From positions 1 through 42,608 of the forward strand of contig PGZS01000005.1 in NCBI GenBank assembly GCA_002841435.1: a stretch of 42,608 bases of DNA, written 5' to 3'. Made by a program: the position numbers and the translations under genes. The notes under the pieces were generated by a model, which was not told the origin of the DNA, searched no databases, and worked only from the letters and a program-made list of their open reading frames with translations. How positions within the stretch are numbered: position 1 is the first letter of the stretch; each line of letters opens with the position of its first letter. The stretch is from Firmicutes bacterium HGW-Firmicutes-3 (GTDB lineage: Bacteria > Bacillota > Clostridia > Lachnospirales > Vallitaleaceae). This document shows, piece by piece, positions 11,789 to 20,982 of this stretch.

Positions 11789-11839
11789 TCAGATTAGTAG
11801 ACATGCTAGGTTGTATTATGGGTAAAGAGGTGATGCCTT

Positions 11840-12400
11840 ATCATCAAGCAACTGGCCAATATTCTATCCTTCTCCAGAATATTAGCGGCTTTTTCTATGT
11901 TAATGATTGCACCATTTTCTGGGTGGTTCTATCTCGTTTATACGTACTGTGGCATGACGGATGTGTTGGATGGCATAATAGCAAGAAGCCTGCAGACTGA
12001 GAGTCATATGGGTGCAAGACTTGACAGTATTGCGGATATGGTTCTTTTTATTGTGGTTTTTTATAAACTGGGACCGATGTTATGGCTATCGGTTGCTAGG
12101 TGGGTTTGGTATGCCGGTGCTATCATTGCACTTATACGCATAACGGCTTATATCATCGGTACCCTTCGGTTTCGTCAATTTGCTTCCTTGCATCTGATCT
12201 CCAACAAAGTGACAGGACTGGTTCTATTTTTCGTACCCTATTTGATTTTAATCATGGAGATTAAGACGGTATTGATAGGTCTAATTATGATAGCGACTCT
12301 GTCATCACTGGAAGAGTTGTTCTGTGAGATTAAGGCGAAGCAATTTAATCCCAATATTAGAAGCTATTTTGAGTTAGTAGAGAATAAACGTTTACAATAA
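11840..12400 (+). CDS. CDP-alcohol phosphatidyltransferase family protein; start uncertain
   Basis: Exact CDP-OH-P motif DGIIAR-x8-G-ARL-D-SIA-D; homology-like N-terminal sequence extends upstream of the first ATG (11897) to a TGA, with no ATG/GTG/TTG in between. Confidence 0.75.
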   Translation: MIKQLANILSFSRILAAFSMLMIAPFSGWFYLVYTYCGMTDVLDGIIARSLQTESHMGARLDSIADMVLFIVVFYKLGPMLWLSVARWVWYAGAIIALIRITAYIIGTLRFRQFASLHLISNKVTGLVLFFVPYLILIMEIKTVLIGLIMIATLSSLEELFCEIKAKQFNPNIRSYFELVENKRLQ

Positions 12401-12548
12401 TATAAAGTAAGGGATTAATTATTACCAACATTGAAGGAATGTAACACCATTATGAGGTGCAAAATGATTGGAAAAAACATAGTAGTTGAGGCTTTTAAAG
12501 AAAATGAAGGAATTCATCTACTAAGGGTTATGAATAAGTAGCAAACCA

Positions 12549-12577
12549 TTGACAAGTAACCTTCTTTCAAGTATACT
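12549..12577 (+). promoter_or_regulatory. Consensus sigma-A promoter (TTGACA-17-TATACT)
   Basis: TTGACA 12549-12554, TATACT 12572-12577, 17-bp spacer. Confidence 0.75.
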
Positions 12578-12589
12578 TTTGAAAAGACA

Positions 12590-12630
12590 AAGATGTCAGA
12601 CCCTTAGGGATTTGACGTCTTTTTTTTATG
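12590..12630 (+). terminator. Intrinsic terminator / leader attenuator just downstream of the promoter
   Basis: AAGATGTCAGACCC-TTA-GGGATTTGACGTCTT hairpin followed by TTTTTTT. Confidence 0.75.
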
Positions 12631-12701
12631 TTTTATTATATAGCCTCTATTTAGGATATGGCTTACGGGTCATAGGAGGATGGAAAAGAGAGGAGAATAA
12701 A

Positions 12702-13403
12702 ATGATACGTTTGGAAAAAATAAATAAGTTCTTTGGGGATCTTCATGTACTACATTCAGGGCTTGAGATTACTTTAGCTGAGATGATGGCTGAGCGCTTA
12801 GGCGTTGAGGCGGAGTTTACACCGGTTACAGCGGCAACACGTACGGAGCTTCTTGATTCAGGAGCCCTTGATTTTGTTATTGCAACCTTTACAATCACGG
12901 ATGAAAGAAAAGAAAACTGGGATTTTTCAACACCTTATTTTACAGATTATGTAACGGTACTTGTTGAAAATGCTTCAGGTATTACGAGCTTAGAAGGCTT
13001 ATTAGATGCAAAAGTGGGCGTTTCCTCCGGTTCCACATCGGCTAGGGCTCTTACTGAAGCGATGATTGAAAAAGGCATTATTGACGGAGCGAATTTTAAC
13101 AAAGAGACTTTCGATGCGTCCACATGGACGGAAGGCGTTGCGTTCTTACAATTTGATGATTATCCAACGATCTCTACAGCACTAAGCGCCGGTGAGATTG
13201 ATGCTTTTTGTGTGGATAAATCCATCCTAGCGGCTTATAACACAGAATCACGTTCCTATATTGAAGATACCTTTGCACCACAAAACTATGGTGTTGCTAC
13301 GAAGAAAGATTCTGGTATCTCAACTTTTGTTGAAGAACATATTTCAGCATGGTTGGCAGATGGTACGGTTGCATCTCTTATTACTGAAAATGGTTTGGAG
13401 TAG
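12702..13403 (+). CDS. Chimeric amino-acid ABC transporter protein: 5' end of a GlnQ-type ATPase fused to a signal-peptide-less substrate-binding domain
   Basis: RBS aggag; N-term MIRLEKINKFFGDLHVLHS resembles polar amino-acid ABC ATPase N-termini; the remainder (ITLAEMMAERLGVEAEFTPVTAATRTELLDSGALDFVIATFTITDERKENWDFSTPYF) is a type 3 solute-binding protein. Confidence 0.75.
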   Translation: MIRLEKINKFFGDLHVLHSGLEITLAEMMAERLGVEAEFTPVTAATRTELLDSGALDFVIATFTITDERKENWDFSTPYFTDYVTVLVENASGITSLEGLLDAKVGVSSGSTSARALTEAMIEKGIIDGANFNKETFDASTWTEGVAFLQFDDYPTISTALSAGEIDAFCVDKSILAAYNTESRSYIEDTFAPQNYGVATKKDSGISTFVEEHISAWLADGTVASLITENGLE

Positions 13404-13405
13404 GG

Positions 13406-14128
13406 ATGGGCGGCCTATTTTCTGCTGATGCATGGGAGAAAATATGGATTTTTAGAGAAACTTTTTTACTCGGTCTGGCAAATACAGGGAAGATGGCATC
13501 GGTTGCTTTGCTACTGTCTTTCCTTCTGGGCCTTATATTTGGGATGATGGCAACAAGCGGACAGAAGTCTCTAGAACATATTTCTCGAATCTATGTAGAG
13601 CTTATACAGAACACACCTTTGATTCTGCAGTTGTGTTTTCTCTATTATGCATTAGCTTTTTCCGGAAACAGTATTGGCATATTACCCACGGGTATGATTG
13701 CTCTTGGAATCTATCATGGTGCTTACATGTCAGAGGTGGTGCGCGCCGGTATTGGTGCTATTCCAAAAGGTCAGTTTGAAGCGGCGTCATCCCAAGGGTT
13801 TGGTTATATGGGTGAGATGTATTATGTGATCTTGCCTCAAAGTATTAAAATTATTCTGCCACCTATGGTGAATCAGGTGGTAAATCTGATCAAAAATACC
13901 TCCTGTTTGTATATTATCGGCGGTGCGGATTTGATTTCATTGACGTATAGTTTTGTGACGGGGGCCTCTACAGGCGGTGCTTATGGTCCGGCTTATCTCG
14001 TTAGTGGTCTATTGTTTTTTGTGATATGTTATCCCCTCTCAACGATTGCCAGTCACTGGGAGAATGCATTGAAGTTACGGGAACAGAAGACTCAAATGGT
14101 GCCACTTACAATTGAAGAGAGGGGTTGA
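13406..14128 (+). CDS. Amino-acid ABC transporter permease (HisM/GlnP type)
   Basis: 240 aa; YVELIQNTPLILQL, EVVRAGIGAIPKGQFEAASSQGFG EAA loop. Confidence 0.92.
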   Translation: MGGLFSADAWEKIWIFRETFLLGLANTGKMASVALLLSFLLGLIFGMMATSGQKSLEHISRIYVELIQNTPLILQLCFLYYALAFSGNSIGILPTGMIALGIYHGAYMSEVVRAGIGAIPKGQFEAASSQGFGYMGEMYYVILPQSIKIILPPMVNQVVNLIKNTSCLYIIGGADLISLTYSFVTGASTGGAYGPAYLVSGLLFFVICYPLSTIASHWENALKLREQKTQMVPLTIEERG

Positions 14129-14132
14129 AGGT

Positions 14133-14900
14133 ATGGAGAAATTAGAAGCCAGTTTTTCCATGTTAACCAATCCGGGCGTACTGGTTTATTTGCTTAAGGG
14201 CATCGGATTCACCCTTGTCTTATCGGTTGTTGCGGTCGTCCTTGGTGTTGTTTTTGGGTCGGTCTTGGCTCTTGTACGTAATTATTGTACGACAAAGAAG
14301 ACGAAGGTATTTAAGGCTTTGGCGACAATGTATATTGAGGTGTTTCGTAATACGCCATTGTTGTTATGGATTTTTATTTGTTTGGTGTTTTTACCTTTTC
14401 CTAAGTTTTTATCAAGGCAAATGTTTGGTTTGACATCTGTGGAAGTGAAGATGCTTTATAAGGCAGCATTTGCCTTGATTTTGTTTACATCATCGGTGAT
14501 TGCAGAGATTGTTAGAGGTGGGTTGAATGCAGTTGCCCATGGTCAATTTGAAGCCGGTCATTCCCAGGGGTTTAATACGGTTGGGGTTATGATCTATATT
14601 GTATTACCCCAAGCCTATCGAAACATTGTTCCGACACTACTAAGTCAAGTCATTACGACCATCAAAGACTCCTCTTATCTGGCCAATGTTGCGGTGATTG
14701 AGTTGATGTCACGTACGAAGACGTTACTTAGTTCGGCTTATATCTATAATGGTACAGGTACGGTGAATGTTTCGGATGTTTTTGTTTTGTTTGGTTTTGC
14801 GATGGTGATCTATTTCATTATTAATTTTGCTTTATCTTCTCTAGTACGGTATATTCAAAAGCATCCAAGAATACCAAAATCCGCGATAAAGACCGGCTAG
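14133..14900 (+). CDS. Amino-acid ABC transporter permease (HisM/GlnP type)
   Basis: EVFRNTPLLLWIF; EIVRGGLNAVAHGQFEAGHSQGFN EAA loop; ORF open from 14112, ATG at 14133. Confidence 0.92.
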   Translation: MEKLEASFSMLTNPGVLVYLLKGIGFTLVLSVVAVVLGVVFGSVLALVRNYCTTKKTKVFKALATMYIEVFRNTPLLLWIFICLVFLPFPKFLSRQMFGLTSVEVKMLYKAAFALILFTSSVIAEIVRGGLNAVAHGQFEAGHSQGFNTVGVMIYIVLPQAYRNIVPTLLSQVITTIKDSSYLANVAVIELMSRTKTLLSSAYIYNGTGTVNVSDVFVLFGFAMVIYFIINFALSSLVRYIQKHPRIPKSAIKTG

Positions 14901-14914
14901 AAGGGAGGAAAACT

Positions 14915-15523
14915 ATGGAACCATATGTTATCACGATTTCCAGACAGTTTGCCAGTCTAGGTAGGACCATTGCTCAGCAGTTAGCCGAAGTACTGGGTAT
15001 TGAATTCTATGACCGAGATATTGTAGAAGCAACGGCAAAACGTATGCAATTGCCTATATCCATGATCAGCGATGAAGAGGAACAGGCTAATAGCACTTTT
15101 TTGAAGCGAAAAAATCATCTTGGCATGGGTGTGGTGAATCTAGAGGATGAGATCTTCGAAGTTCAAGCTAACATTATTCAAGATCTAGCTTCACAGGAAT
15201 CCTGTATTATTGTAGGCCGTTGCGGGCATTTTCTCTTAAGAGAGCATCCGAAAAGTCTGCACATTTATGTGTATGCACCTTATGAAGCGAGGCTTCATAA
15301 TTGTATGCATGTCCTTAAGATGGAGGAGAAAACAGCCCATCGTATGTTAAGAGAAGTGGATAAAGCAAGAGAGGTCTATCGGCAGCGATACGCCAAAGGG
15401 ATGGAAGATATCTACGATGCCTTTGATCTCATGATTGACAGCAACAGGTTCGGGGTGGAAGGTACGGTGTCTATCCTTACGGATATTGTTAAACAGCGAT
15501 TAAAATTAGATGAGCCATCTTAA
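14915..15523 (+). CDS. Cytidylate kinase-like family protein
   Basis: 202 aa; VITISRQFASLGRTIAQQLAEVLGIEFYDRDIV; IIVGRCGHFLL. Confidence 0.88.
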   Translation: MEPYVITISRQFASLGRTIAQQLAEVLGIEFYDRDIVEATAKRMQLPISMISDEEEQANSTFLKRKNHLGMGVVNLEDEIFEVQANIIQDLASQESCIIVGRCGHFLLREHPKSLHIYVYAPYEARLHNCMHVLKMEEKTAHRMLREVDKAREVYRQRYAKGMEDIYDAFDLMIDSNRFGVEGTVSILTDIVKQRLKLDEPS

Positions 15524-15654: not shown

Positions 15655-15852
15655 TAAACAGTATGACCAAATGAACCCCTAAGTATGCTTTGCTCAGGCT
15701 GTGGGGTTTATTTCGTCGTTTTTTCGTTGCAAACCGAAATACAACGGTAGATAAATATACGACTTAATATGCAACGATAAATACAACGATAGAGAGAGCG
15801 TTGCATTTAATGTATATTTATGATAGAATTATCTTATAAATATTAGGAGGTA

Positions 15853-17133
15853 ATGTCAGTGGAACCTAGAGAAAGCTATAACTTAGAATATAAAGTAGAA
15901 GTTTCAAGAACTTTTTTGAAGACGGTTAGTGCATATGCCAATTATAATGATGGAGAAATAGTATTCGGTGTAGATGATCATGGAAAAATAGTGGGTATAG
16001 AAGATGCTAAAGAAGAATCCTTACGAATTGAGAATATGATTAATGATGCAATCATTCCGATTCCTTACTTTACAATAAAAGTTAAAGAAGCTGAGCGTAA
16101 AGAGGTTATTCTGCTAGAAGTAAAAAAAGGTAAAGATACGCCCTACTTTTACCAAGGAAAAGCTTATAAAAGAGCAGATACTTCCACAGTTGGTGTAGAT
16201 AGATTTGAGCTTAGAAGATTAGCTATGGAAGGTATTAATATTGGCTATGAAGAGAGAAAAGCAACCTCCCAAGATTTAAGTTTTAACGCTCTAGAGTCTA
16301 AGTTGAAGGCGGAAGCCGGTATAGAAAAAATAAACTTAGATATTCTTAAAACCTTAAATTTATTTAATAAAGATGGATATTACAATATTGCTGGGGAATT
16401 ATTAGCAGACTATAACGAAATATTTTTTTCGGGAATAGATTTCATTAAATTTGGAAAAGATATTAGTAAAATTCTATATAGAGATAGTATAACGAATAAA
16501 TCTTTATTAACACAATTTGATAGGGCAATAGAGATTTTTGAGCAATACTACTTATTTGAAGAGATAAATGGTTATAATAGAATAAAGAAAGAACTGATTC
16601 CCAAAGAAGCCTTTAGAGAATCTTTGGCGAACGCTATCGTTCATAGAGTATGGGATACTAACTCATATATACAAATTGCAATGTATGAGGATAAGATTGA
16701 AATTAATTCTCCAGGAGGTTTGCCGGCAGGCATTTCCAGAGAGGAATATTTAAATGGAAATGTTTCAGTTCTAAGAAATCCAATCATTGCAGGGGTTTTT
16801 AACAGATTAAATATTATTGAAAAATTTGGAACGGGTATTGCAAGAATTAATGAAGCTTATAGTCATAGTATACCCAAGCCGGATTTTGATATCAGTGAAA
16901 ATAGGATTAAGATTGTATTGCCAGTTACTGAAATTGATAAATTAGAATTGTCAGCAGATGAACATTTTATTTATGATTTGTTAAAAGAAGGTCTAGAGCT
17001 TTCAAGAAAAGAGATTGATTTGAAAACAAAATTTGAAAAGTCAAAAACACTTAGAATTTTAAATAGTCTTGTAGATAAAAATATTATCAAAAAATTAGGT
17101 AAAGGTACAACAGTAACATACAAAATAAAGTAA
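15853..17133 (+). CDS. ATP-binding protein with Schlafen AlbA_2 domain (putative transcriptional regulator)
   Basis: 426 aa; ESYNLEYKVEVSRTFLKTVSAYANYNDGEIVFGVDDHGKIVGIED; later HRVWDTNSYIQIAMYEDKIEINSPGGLPAGISREEYLNGNVSVLRNPIIAGVFNRLNIIEKFGTGI. Confidence 0.88.
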   Translation: MSVEPRESYNLEYKVEVSRTFLKTVSAYANYNDGEIVFGVDDHGKIVGIEDAKEESLRIENMINDAIIPIPYFTIKVKEAERKEVILLEVKKGKDTPYFYQGKAYKRADTSTVGVDRFELRRLAMEGINIGYEERKATSQDLSFNALESKLKAEAGIEKINLDILKTLNLFNKDGYYNIAGELLADYNEIFFSGIDFIKFGKDISKILYRDSITNKSLLTQFDRAIEIFEQYYLFEEINGYNRIKKELIPKEAFRESLANAIVHRVWDTNSYIQIAMYEDKIEINSPGGLPAGISREEYLNGNVSVLRNPIIAGVFNRLNIIEKFGTGIARINEAYSHSIPKPDFDISENRIKIVLPVTEIDKLELSADEHFIYDLLKEGLELSRKEIDLKTKFEKSKTLRILNSLVDKNIIKKLGKGTTVTYKIK

Positions 17134-17259: not shown

Positions 17260-17508
17260 ATGATGAGAAAAAGTAGAAGGTTTAACCCCATTAAATTCAT
17301 ATCCTTAGTCCTATTGTTAGTCAGTATGGGCCTCATTGCGAACAATTATTTCTGGGGTCAAGATGAGGTTGTTATAGACACGAGCAAAGTCATCTCACAT
17401 AACGCCAGTCAGAGCAAGTTATTTACTTCGGGCAAGGAGGATTTTATTAATACAGAAGAAGCGCTTCAGGCAGAAGTGGTGGCGATGATTATGGGGTGGC
17501 TATGTTAA
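17260..17508 (+). CDS. Small predicted membrane/exported protein, unknown function
   Basis: 82 aa with one N-terminal TM helix (FISLVLLLVSMGLIANNYFW), plausible RBS (ctggag), overlaps start of next gene. Confidence 0.4.
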   Translation: MMRKSRRFNPIKFISLVLLLVSMGLIANNYFWGQDEVVIDTSKVISHNASQSKLFTSGKEDFINTEEALQAEVVAMIMGWLC

Positions 17509-18704
17509 TACGCGAAAAAATAACGAATAACATTAGAAGACAAGTCATGGTAGGACACCATATTATTGGTGTTGCTTCTGGTGCCGGTATTACGGCTAAG
17601 TACGCTGAACAAGGCGGTGCTGACTTTGTGCTTGCCCTAAATGCTGGGAAATTCAGACAAATGGGTAGAAGTTCTATATCAGGCTTTTTACCTTTTTGCA
17701 ACAGTAATGATATGGTCATGGAATTTGCTTCTAGAGAAATCAAGCCGGTTACCCATTCCATTCCCGTTATTTTTGGTCTTAATGCTACAGATCCAACCAT
17801 TGACCTTGAGTATTACATTGAACGAATTAAGAGTATGGGCTTTGAAGGGATTAATAATTTCCCCACGGTGGGCTTGATCGATGGTCAATATAGAGAAGCG
17901 CTAGAAGAAGAAGGTCTTACCTATAATCTTGAGGTGGAAGCCATTAGAATTGCCCATGAAAAAGGTCTTTTTACAGTGGCTTTTGTATTTGACGAGGATC
18001 AAACGAGGGAAATGTTACGTGCTGGGGCGGACATTATATGTGCACATCTTGGGTTTACGGCTGGGGGTATGCTTGGTGCTAAGAAAGTCCTTTCGTTAGA
18101 AGCGGCTAAACATAAAGTGAAAAACATTTTTGCGGTGTGTAACGAAATTAGACCGGACGTCATTAAGATGATTTACGGTGGCCCGGTTAAAACGCCGGTA
18201 GACGTACAATATATGTATAGCGATACAGATCTTCTAGGGTATATTGGCGGTTCATCTTTTGAACGAATTCCTTCTGAAAAATCCATTACCAATATTACCC
18301 GTGCTTTTAAGACGACAGGTGAACTGAGCGAAGACGATCTCATGGTTAAGATGCTTGAAGGGATTACAAAGCACTATGATTATGTTCAATTTGTTAAAAA
18401 ATATGTGTCAGAGCATTATATGCAAACAATCTCTTTTATTGACTTGGCAAGTGTTCTCTATATATCCAGAAGTCATTTAAGCCATTTGTTTAAAACAGAA
18501 GTTGGATGCAGCTTTCCCCAGTATCTGGTTCAGTACCGGGTGAACAAAGCCATGGAGATTATTAACAGTGAAAATGAGCTGAATCTTTCGGAAGTGGCAC
18601 AGCTCGTGGGCTATCAAGATTATTCTCAGTTTTGCAAAATGTTTAAAAAATATGTTGGTCAGACACCTAATCACTATAAAACTGGACATAAACACATAGG
18701 GTAA
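17496..18704 (+). CDS. TIM-barrel (PEP hydrolase family) domain fused to C-terminal AraC-type HTH: putative transcriptional regulator
   Basis: N-terminal ~280 aa is paralogous to 20140-20982 (ASGAGITAKYAEQGGAD..., [11 protein letters not shown]); C-terminal YISRSHLSHLFKTEVGCSFPQYLVQYRVNKAMEII...VAQLVGYQDYSQFCKMFKKYVGQTPNHYK. Confidence 0.92.
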   Translation: MAMLIREKITNNIRRQVMVGHHIIGVASGAGITAKYAEQGGADFVLALNAGKFRQMGRSSISGFLPFCNSNDMVMEFASREIKPVTHSIPVIFGLNATDPTIDLEYYIERIKSMGFEGINNFPTVGLIDGQYREALEEEGLTYNLEVEAIRIAHEKGLFTVAFVFDEDQTREMLRAGADIICAHLGFTAGGMLGAKKVLSLEAAKHKVKNIFAVCNEIRPDVIKMIYGGPVKTPVDVQYMYSDTDLLGYIGGSSFERIPSEKSITNITRAFKTTGELSEDDLMVKMLEGITKHYDYVQFVKKYVSEHYMQTISFIDLASVLYISRSHLSHLFKTEVGCSFPQYLVQYRVNKAMEIINSENELNLSEVAQLVGYQDYSQFCKMFKKYVGQTPNHYKTGHKHIG

Positions 18705-18842: not shown

Positions 18843-20060
18843 ATGAAGACTGTAGCAATAGCGGGAACGTTTGATTCAAAAGGTAAAGAATATGAATTTG
18901 TAAAAGAACTTATTGAAGACCTTGGACTTAAAACATTTACAATTCATACGGGTGTGTTTGAACCAATATTTGAGCCGGATGTTTCAAATGTAGAAGTAGC
19001 AAAGGCAGCGGGTGCTGACATCAAAGAAATTGCAGAAAAGAAAGATCGAGCACATGCAACAGAAGTATTATCAAAAGGTATGGAGAAACTGATTCCTGAC
19101 CTGTATAAGGCAGGTGAATTCGATGGGATTATCTCTCTTGGCGGAACGGGCGGAACAGCTCTTGTGACACCGGGTATGAGAGCGCTCCCTATTGGGGTAC
19201 CAAAGCTTATGGTGTCAACAGTAGCTTCAGGTAACACAGCCCACTATATAGGCACAAGTGATATTATGATGATGCCATCTGTTGTGGATGTATCAGGTCT
19301 CAATTCAATATCCATGAAGATATTTGCGAATGCAGCTTTTGCGATTGCAGGCATGGTGAAGTTTGAGAACAATCGAAGTGTTGAGAAGAAACCGCTGGTA
19401 GCGGCAACCATGTTTGGCGTGACGACACCATGTGTTGATTTTGCAAGAACCTATCTGGAAGACCGTGGGTATGAAGTTCTTATTTTTCATGCGACCGGTA
19501 CCGGTGGCAAATCAATGGAAGCACTGGTTGAAGGTGGCTTTATTGAAGGTGTACTGGATATAACAACGACAGAGTGGTGTGATGAAATAGTAGGTGGTGT
19601 TTTGAATGCTGGTCCTAACCGTCTTGAAGCTGCTGGTAGGATGGGTGTTCCACAAGTTGTTTCTGTTGGCGCGGTGGATATGGTCAACTTCGGACCAATC
19701 GATACCATACCTAAACAATTTGAAGGCAGAAATCTATACAAGCATAACCCGACGGTAACACTGATGAGAACCACAGTAGATGAGAACATCAAAATCGGTG
19801 AAAAAATAGCAGAAAAACTGAACATGGCAAGTAAAGATACAGTTATGCTATTGCCACTTAAGGGCGTGTCAATGATTGATGCACCGGAGCAACCATTCTT
19901 CGGTAAAGAAGAGGACGAAGCCTTATTTGAAGCGATCAGGTCCAATATTGACGAAAATGTGGTTGTACTTAAGGAACTGACAAATCACATCAACGATCAA
20001 GTTTTTGCTGAAACGGCTGCACAGATGTTGATTGACATGATGGAAAAGGACAAAGTGTAG
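18843..20060 (+). CDS. Tm-1-like ATP-binding domain-containing protein (UPF0261)
   Basis: 405 aa; MKTVAIAGTFDSKGKEYEFVKELIEDLGLKTFTIHTGV; GIISLGGTGGTALVTPGMRALPIGVPKLMVSTVASGNTAHYIGTSDI. Confidence 0.92.
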   Translation: MKTVAIAGTFDSKGKEYEFVKELIEDLGLKTFTIHTGVFEPIFEPDVSNVEVAKAAGADIKEIAEKKDRAHATEVLSKGMEKLIPDLYKAGEFDGIISLGGTGGTALVTPGMRALPIGVPKLMVSTVASGNTAHYIGTSDIMMMPSVVDVSGLNSISMKIFANAAFAIAGMVKFENNRSVEKKPLVAATMFGVTTPCVDFARTYLEDRGYEVLIFHATGTGGKSMEALVEGGFIEGVLDITTTEWCDEIVGGVLNAGPNRLEAAGRMGVPQVVSVGAVDMVNFGPIDTIPKQFEGRNLYKHNPTVTLMRTTVDENIKIGEKIAEKLNMASKDTVMLLPLKGVSMIDAPEQPFFGKEEDEALFEAIRSNIDENVVVLKELTNHINDQVFAETAAQMLIDMMEKDKV

Positions 20061-20139: not shown

Positions 20140-20982
20140 ATGAATAAAATGACGCGAACTGAAATCATGGAAATGTACAGAGAACAAATAAGATCTGGTA
20201 ATATTCTGGTTGGTGTTGGAGCCGGAACCGGTATTACGGCTAAAAGCAGTGAAAAAGGCGGCGCAGATATGTTGATTATCTATAACTCCGGCAGATATAG
20301 GATGGCCGGACGTGGCTCCTTAGCAGGTCTTATGGCTTATGGTGATGCCAATGCGATTGTTGTTGATATGGCATCTGAAGTGCTTCCGGTTGTAGAAAAC
20401 ACACCTGTGCTTGCAGGTATTTGCGGTACGGATCCTTTTAGGGTCATGGAAGTGTTTCTCAAACAAATCAAGGGTATGGGGTTTAGTGGTGCTCAGAATT
20501 TTCCAACCGTCGGGTTAATTGATGGTGTCTTTAGACAGAACCTGGAAGAGACGGGTATGGGTTATGGCCTAGAAGTGGAAATGATTCGAAAAGCACATGA
20601 ACTTGATCTCTTAACAACGCCTTATGTTTTTGATCCAAAACAAGCCAAGCTCATGGCAGAAGCTGGAGCTGATATTCTTGTGGCACATATGGGACTCACA
20701 ACCAAAGGCTCGATTGGGGCTCAAACAGCCTTGACACTTGATGAATGTATTGTAAAAATCGAAGCAATTATAGAAGCAGGACGTAAAGTAAATCCGGATA
20801 TTCTAGTGATTTGCCATGGTGGACCGATTGCTGAACCTCAAGATGCAGCGTATGTGATTGAGAGAACCAAAGGCATTGATGGATTCTTTGGGGCTTCAAG
20901 TATTGAGCGTTTTGCTGCAGAAAAAGGTATTAAGAATCAAACAGAAGCTTTCAAAAACATTGGGAAAAATAAGGAGGTATAA
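20140..20982 (+). CDS. Phosphoenolpyruvate hydrolase family / TIM-barrel signal transduction-like protein
   Basis: 280 aa; [59 protein letters not shown]. Confidence 0.9.

Follow-up and report, generated by a model that had tools for sequence, protein, structure and literature searches.

A chimeric ABC ATPase/solute-binding protein ORF in a draft clostridial genome, probably left by a recent in-frame deletion within an amino-acid importer operon

The ORF located at positions 12702–13403 (forward strand) of the window, i.e. the whole 42,608-nt contig (C296) analyzed here, opens like one component of an amino-acid importer and continues like another. This raises the question of whether it represents a new kind of protein or the relic of a broken operon. 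The ORF starts with ATG (12702), directly preceded by the RBS GAGAGGAG, and ends with TAG (13401–13403), which gives a product of 233 aa with the N-terminal sequence MIRLEKINKFFGDLHVLHSGLEITLAEMMAERLGVEAEFTP. Residues 1–17 correspond to the start of the GlnQ-type ABC ATPase of Petrocella sp. FN5 (MIRLEKINKFFGDLHVL), and the DNA region 12688–12754 shows 85% identity to the FN5 ATPase gene. From 12754/12755 onward, the ORF corresponds to a family-3 amino-acid-binding protein (SBP), of which it retains the C-terminal 70%, with approximately 87% DNA identity to the SBP gene of FN5. Pfam analysis of the fusion detected SBP_bac_3 above the cut-off (the profile being entered at position 21 of 132) and did not find ABC_tran. 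In addition, alignments of all 23 database relatives to the fusion begin only at residue 14 or 18. The chimeric nature of the ORF, originally predicted to have its own RBS, to open as a GlnQ-type ATPase and to continue as an SBP, is therefore confirmed, far above chance. It comprises a remnant of the ATPase gene (12702–12754, forward strand; codons 1–17 plus two bases), which stops before the Walker A motif, and a remnant of the SBP gene (12755–13403, forward strand; including the stop codon), which lacks the signal peptide/lipobox and the first strand.

A scan of GTDB genomes yielded 23 loci (FN5 and 22 other genomes), among which Petrocella sp. FN5 (NZ_JARGDP010000055.1) is the closest relative carrying the operon. 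The FN5 gene order is ATPase (239 aa), SBP with a lipoprotein-type leader, permease, permease and a cytidylate kinase-like gene. At each of the 23 loci, a complete ATPase gene lies upstream of a complete SBP gene (frames of approximately 300–350 codons, stop to stop) and both permease genes are present. Intact adjacent orthologs of both parental genes in a conserved order, expected if the ORF is a fusion pseudogene, were thus found in every relative, and the ATPase-SBP-permease-permease order assumed for the ancestral locus was borne out. The short ATPase-SBP form, whose conservation among relatives would have spoken against a deletion, was detected at none of these loci.

Downstream of the fusion, the window contains two intact permease genes of the BPD_transp_1 type (13406–14128 and 14133–14900, forward strand), identified by Pfam and each showing 95% identity to its FN5 counterpart. 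Comparison with FN5 indicates that the second of these likely starts at ATG 14133; the start in the ORF list is TTG 14112. They are followed by an intact gene encoding a cytidylate kinase-like protein (14915–15523, forward strand; Cytidylate_kin2, PF13189, by Pfam). A gene of this family occupies the conserved terminal position of the amino-acid ABC operon in 22 of the 23 genomes (loci L061–L083), and a literature search for Cytidylate_kin2 ending such an operon found nothing relevant.

Base-by-base comparison showed that up to 12753/12754 the window tracks the ATPase gene of FN5, and that from 12754 it tracks the SBP gene of FN5 instead, with one clean junction at the DNA level (12754–12755, forward strand), as a fusion pseudogene requires. 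The A residue at 12754 is the sole base common to both parents, which corresponds to a microhomology of approximately 1 nt, as judged through FN5. Exactly 1,026 bp (3×342 codons) are missing relative to FN5, namely all of the ATPase gene after codon 17, the spacer and approximately the first 92 SBP codons, and the reading frame is kept. The FN5 alignment thus yields the deletion that had been proposed, in frame and covering most of the ATPase together with the SBP signal peptide, with two corrections: the switch, placed near 12756–12770, occurs at 12754, and the deletion is larger than the estimated 0.9 kb. The suggestion that the residues LEI (CTTGAG) mark a microhomology was rejected, since the preceding bases TTCAGGG are already SBP-derived and LEI is therefore not the crossover point. 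None of the flanking direct repeats involves position 12754, the deleted arm being judgeable only through FN5. No close match to the missing segment was found elsewhere in the draft genome, including its other contigs; the only long matches show 69–70% identity and lie within paralogous ATPase genes.

Reduced to 17 codons, the ATPase of this operon has lost the Walker A, signature and Walker B motifs, and with approximately 92 N-terminal SBP codons absent there is no signal peptide or lipobox to direct export of the binding protein. Of the parts expected in a functional PAAT-type ABC importer, the two permeases remain intact, in agreement with the view that both the ATPase and the exported receptor were lost. 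In the AlphaFold model, the ATPase-derived stub (residues 1–17) has pLDDT values below 50 and is predicted to be disordered, and the fusion shows no equivalent of strands 71–76 and 111–116 in the model of the intact FN5 protein. With its nucleotide-binding and signature motifs, leader and initial lobe I strand gone, the system is without motor and receptor; we infer that the 233-aa fusion would have no function and would leave the permeases orphaned.

The dN/dS ratios relative to FN5 were 0.071 for the SBP remnant, 0.054 and 0.046 for the permeases and 0.079 for the kinase, low values that are equally expected from an assembly artefact or from selection acting on the fusion. When amino-acid changes in the remnant were polarized with ten outgroups, five were assigned to the window branch and four to the FN5 branch, while four were unassignable; a fully neutral window branch would be expected to carry approximately 117 changes. 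Neither dN/dS nor the branch counts revealed relaxed selection in the remnant, which is compatible with a very recent event. The absence of drift in the remnant so far suggests that the loss is very recent, or else that it is a strain or assembly variant. As a rough estimate, the SBP gene would either have been unconstrained for less than about one-tenth of the period since divergence from FN5 or not truly have been lost.

The locus is best explained as an operon of ordinary type that broke recently, or as a strain or assembly variant of such an operon, and not as a new kind of protein; a true deletion probably joined the start of the ATPase gene to the end of the SBP gene. Before the break, this bacterium, which belongs to the same genus as Petrocella sp. 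FN5, would have carried a polar amino-acid ABC importer operon of five genes (ATPase, SBP, permease, permease, cytidylate kinase-like). Illegitimate end joining or replication slippage, involving hardly any microhomology, would then have deleted 1,026 bp in a single event and so taken the ATPase from codon 18 onward, the spacer and the initial SBP codons, and the frame was presumably retained by chance (1 in 3), leaving the 233-aa fusion. Rather unlikely alternatives are that the junction arose artificially during assembly or binning, or belongs to a variant strain in the minority, so that the population is intact and the contig is a misjoin or represents one deleted lineage. The source genome is a probably metagenome-derived draft (2.99 Mb in 343 contigs, with a completeness of 86% and a contamination of 4.9%, or approximately 5%), so that the absent segment may not have been assembled, and the absence of decay in the remnant is as expected were the gene still whole in the organism. 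However, the reading frame is preserved and the missing segment occurs on no other contig. Collapse of a short-read assembly graph requires shared sequence of k-mer length and is unlikely at a junction sharing approximately 1 nt, which leaves scaffolding errors, chimeric reads or a strain present in the minority as the possible sources of such a variant.

The open frame, the RBS of its own and the low dN/dS might also be taken to mean that the fusion is a functional cytosolic protein, e.g. a ligand sensor or a decoy acting on the permeases, retained by selection. This is highly improbable, given that the protein was found in no relative, that neither Walker motifs nor an export signal nor the first lobe I strand is present in it and its stub is predicted to be disordered, and that the window branch carries changes at two sites, A83 and D183 (numbered as in the branch counts), that are conserved or nearly so in the outgroups. 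Capture of a leaderless solute-binding domain by the ATPase start codon and RBS, yielding a retained functional cytosolic SBP-like protein, has correspondingly little to recommend it.

A search for an ATPase that might complement a system broken by deletion identified two other GlnQ-type ATPases in the genome, each approximately 55% identical to that of FN5. One is part of a complete SBP-permease-ATPase operon (contig C164) and the other adjoins a permease gene truncated by the contig end (C271); both are possible candidates.

Two other genomes of the Petrocella genus, G002 and G003, contain no ortholog of the operon. Both have the same CDP-alcohol phosphatidyltransferase gene and, downstream of it and beside the same promoter/hairpin element, a putative LytS/LytR-type pair and a CstA-type transporter (families assigned by reading the sequences); this CstA-like gene is absent from the window genome and from FN5. 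In G003, the sequences flanking the operon in the window (12544–12627 and 15715–15842) lie approximately 15 bp apart. Since G002 and G003 lack the operon, and operon content at the locus varies within the genus, the importer seems to be accessory and dispensable.

The shared element (12549–12628, forward strand) consists of a promoter-like TTGACA-17-TATACT sequence immediately followed by a strong hairpin with a U-tract, resembling a terminator-like leader. It occurs in a single copy and is conserved in four Petrocella-genus genomes, in two of them before the transporter and in the other two after the cstA-like gene. No Rfam or other known RNA family was identified in it, and the four sequences contain no compensatory pairs, so that the hairpin is supported by conservation only. 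The element may act as an attenuator or terminator, or may encode a small RNA.

Several neighboring ORFs were also inspected. The homology of the CDP-alcohol phosphatidyltransferase extends upstream of the window ATG at 11897, and CTT is found where the G003 gene starts with ATG; neither the window (11830–11900) nor G002 has ATG, GTG or TTG at this position, pointing to a possible unusual or lost start codon. The window contains a full-length ORF adjoining the operon (15853–17133) that reads as an ATP-binding/AlbA-type protein, but in G003 only short remnants match it (L094, 2810–3015). Sequence inspection further suggested that the ORF at 17496–18704 encodes a putative TIM-barrel (PEP-hydrolase-like) domain with a C-terminal AraC-type HTH; ORFs 18843–20060 and 20140–20982 follow, and the second of them resembles this barrel domain.

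The locus provides a clean case, resolved to the base, in which an accessory transporter operon was lost recently. Automatic pipelines would probably label ORF 12702–13403 as an ABC substrate-binding protein, despite the lack of an export signal and its probable death.

The closest solved structure by sequence is PEB1a/major cell-binding factor (PDB 2v25), an amino-acid-binding SBP, with which residues 19–214 of the fusion were aligned. The alignment starts at chain residue 62, and everything earlier, including the first strand, is absent from the fusion. FN5 and the window share the upstream promoter/hairpin element and the downstream gene order, with 94–95% protein identity for the SBP remnant and the permeases, whereas the farther upstream flank differs (dTDP-rhamnose genes in FN5). 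FN5 carries a complete ATPase and a complete lipoprotein-type SBP; the window, in contrast, lacks the 1,026 bp that span both.
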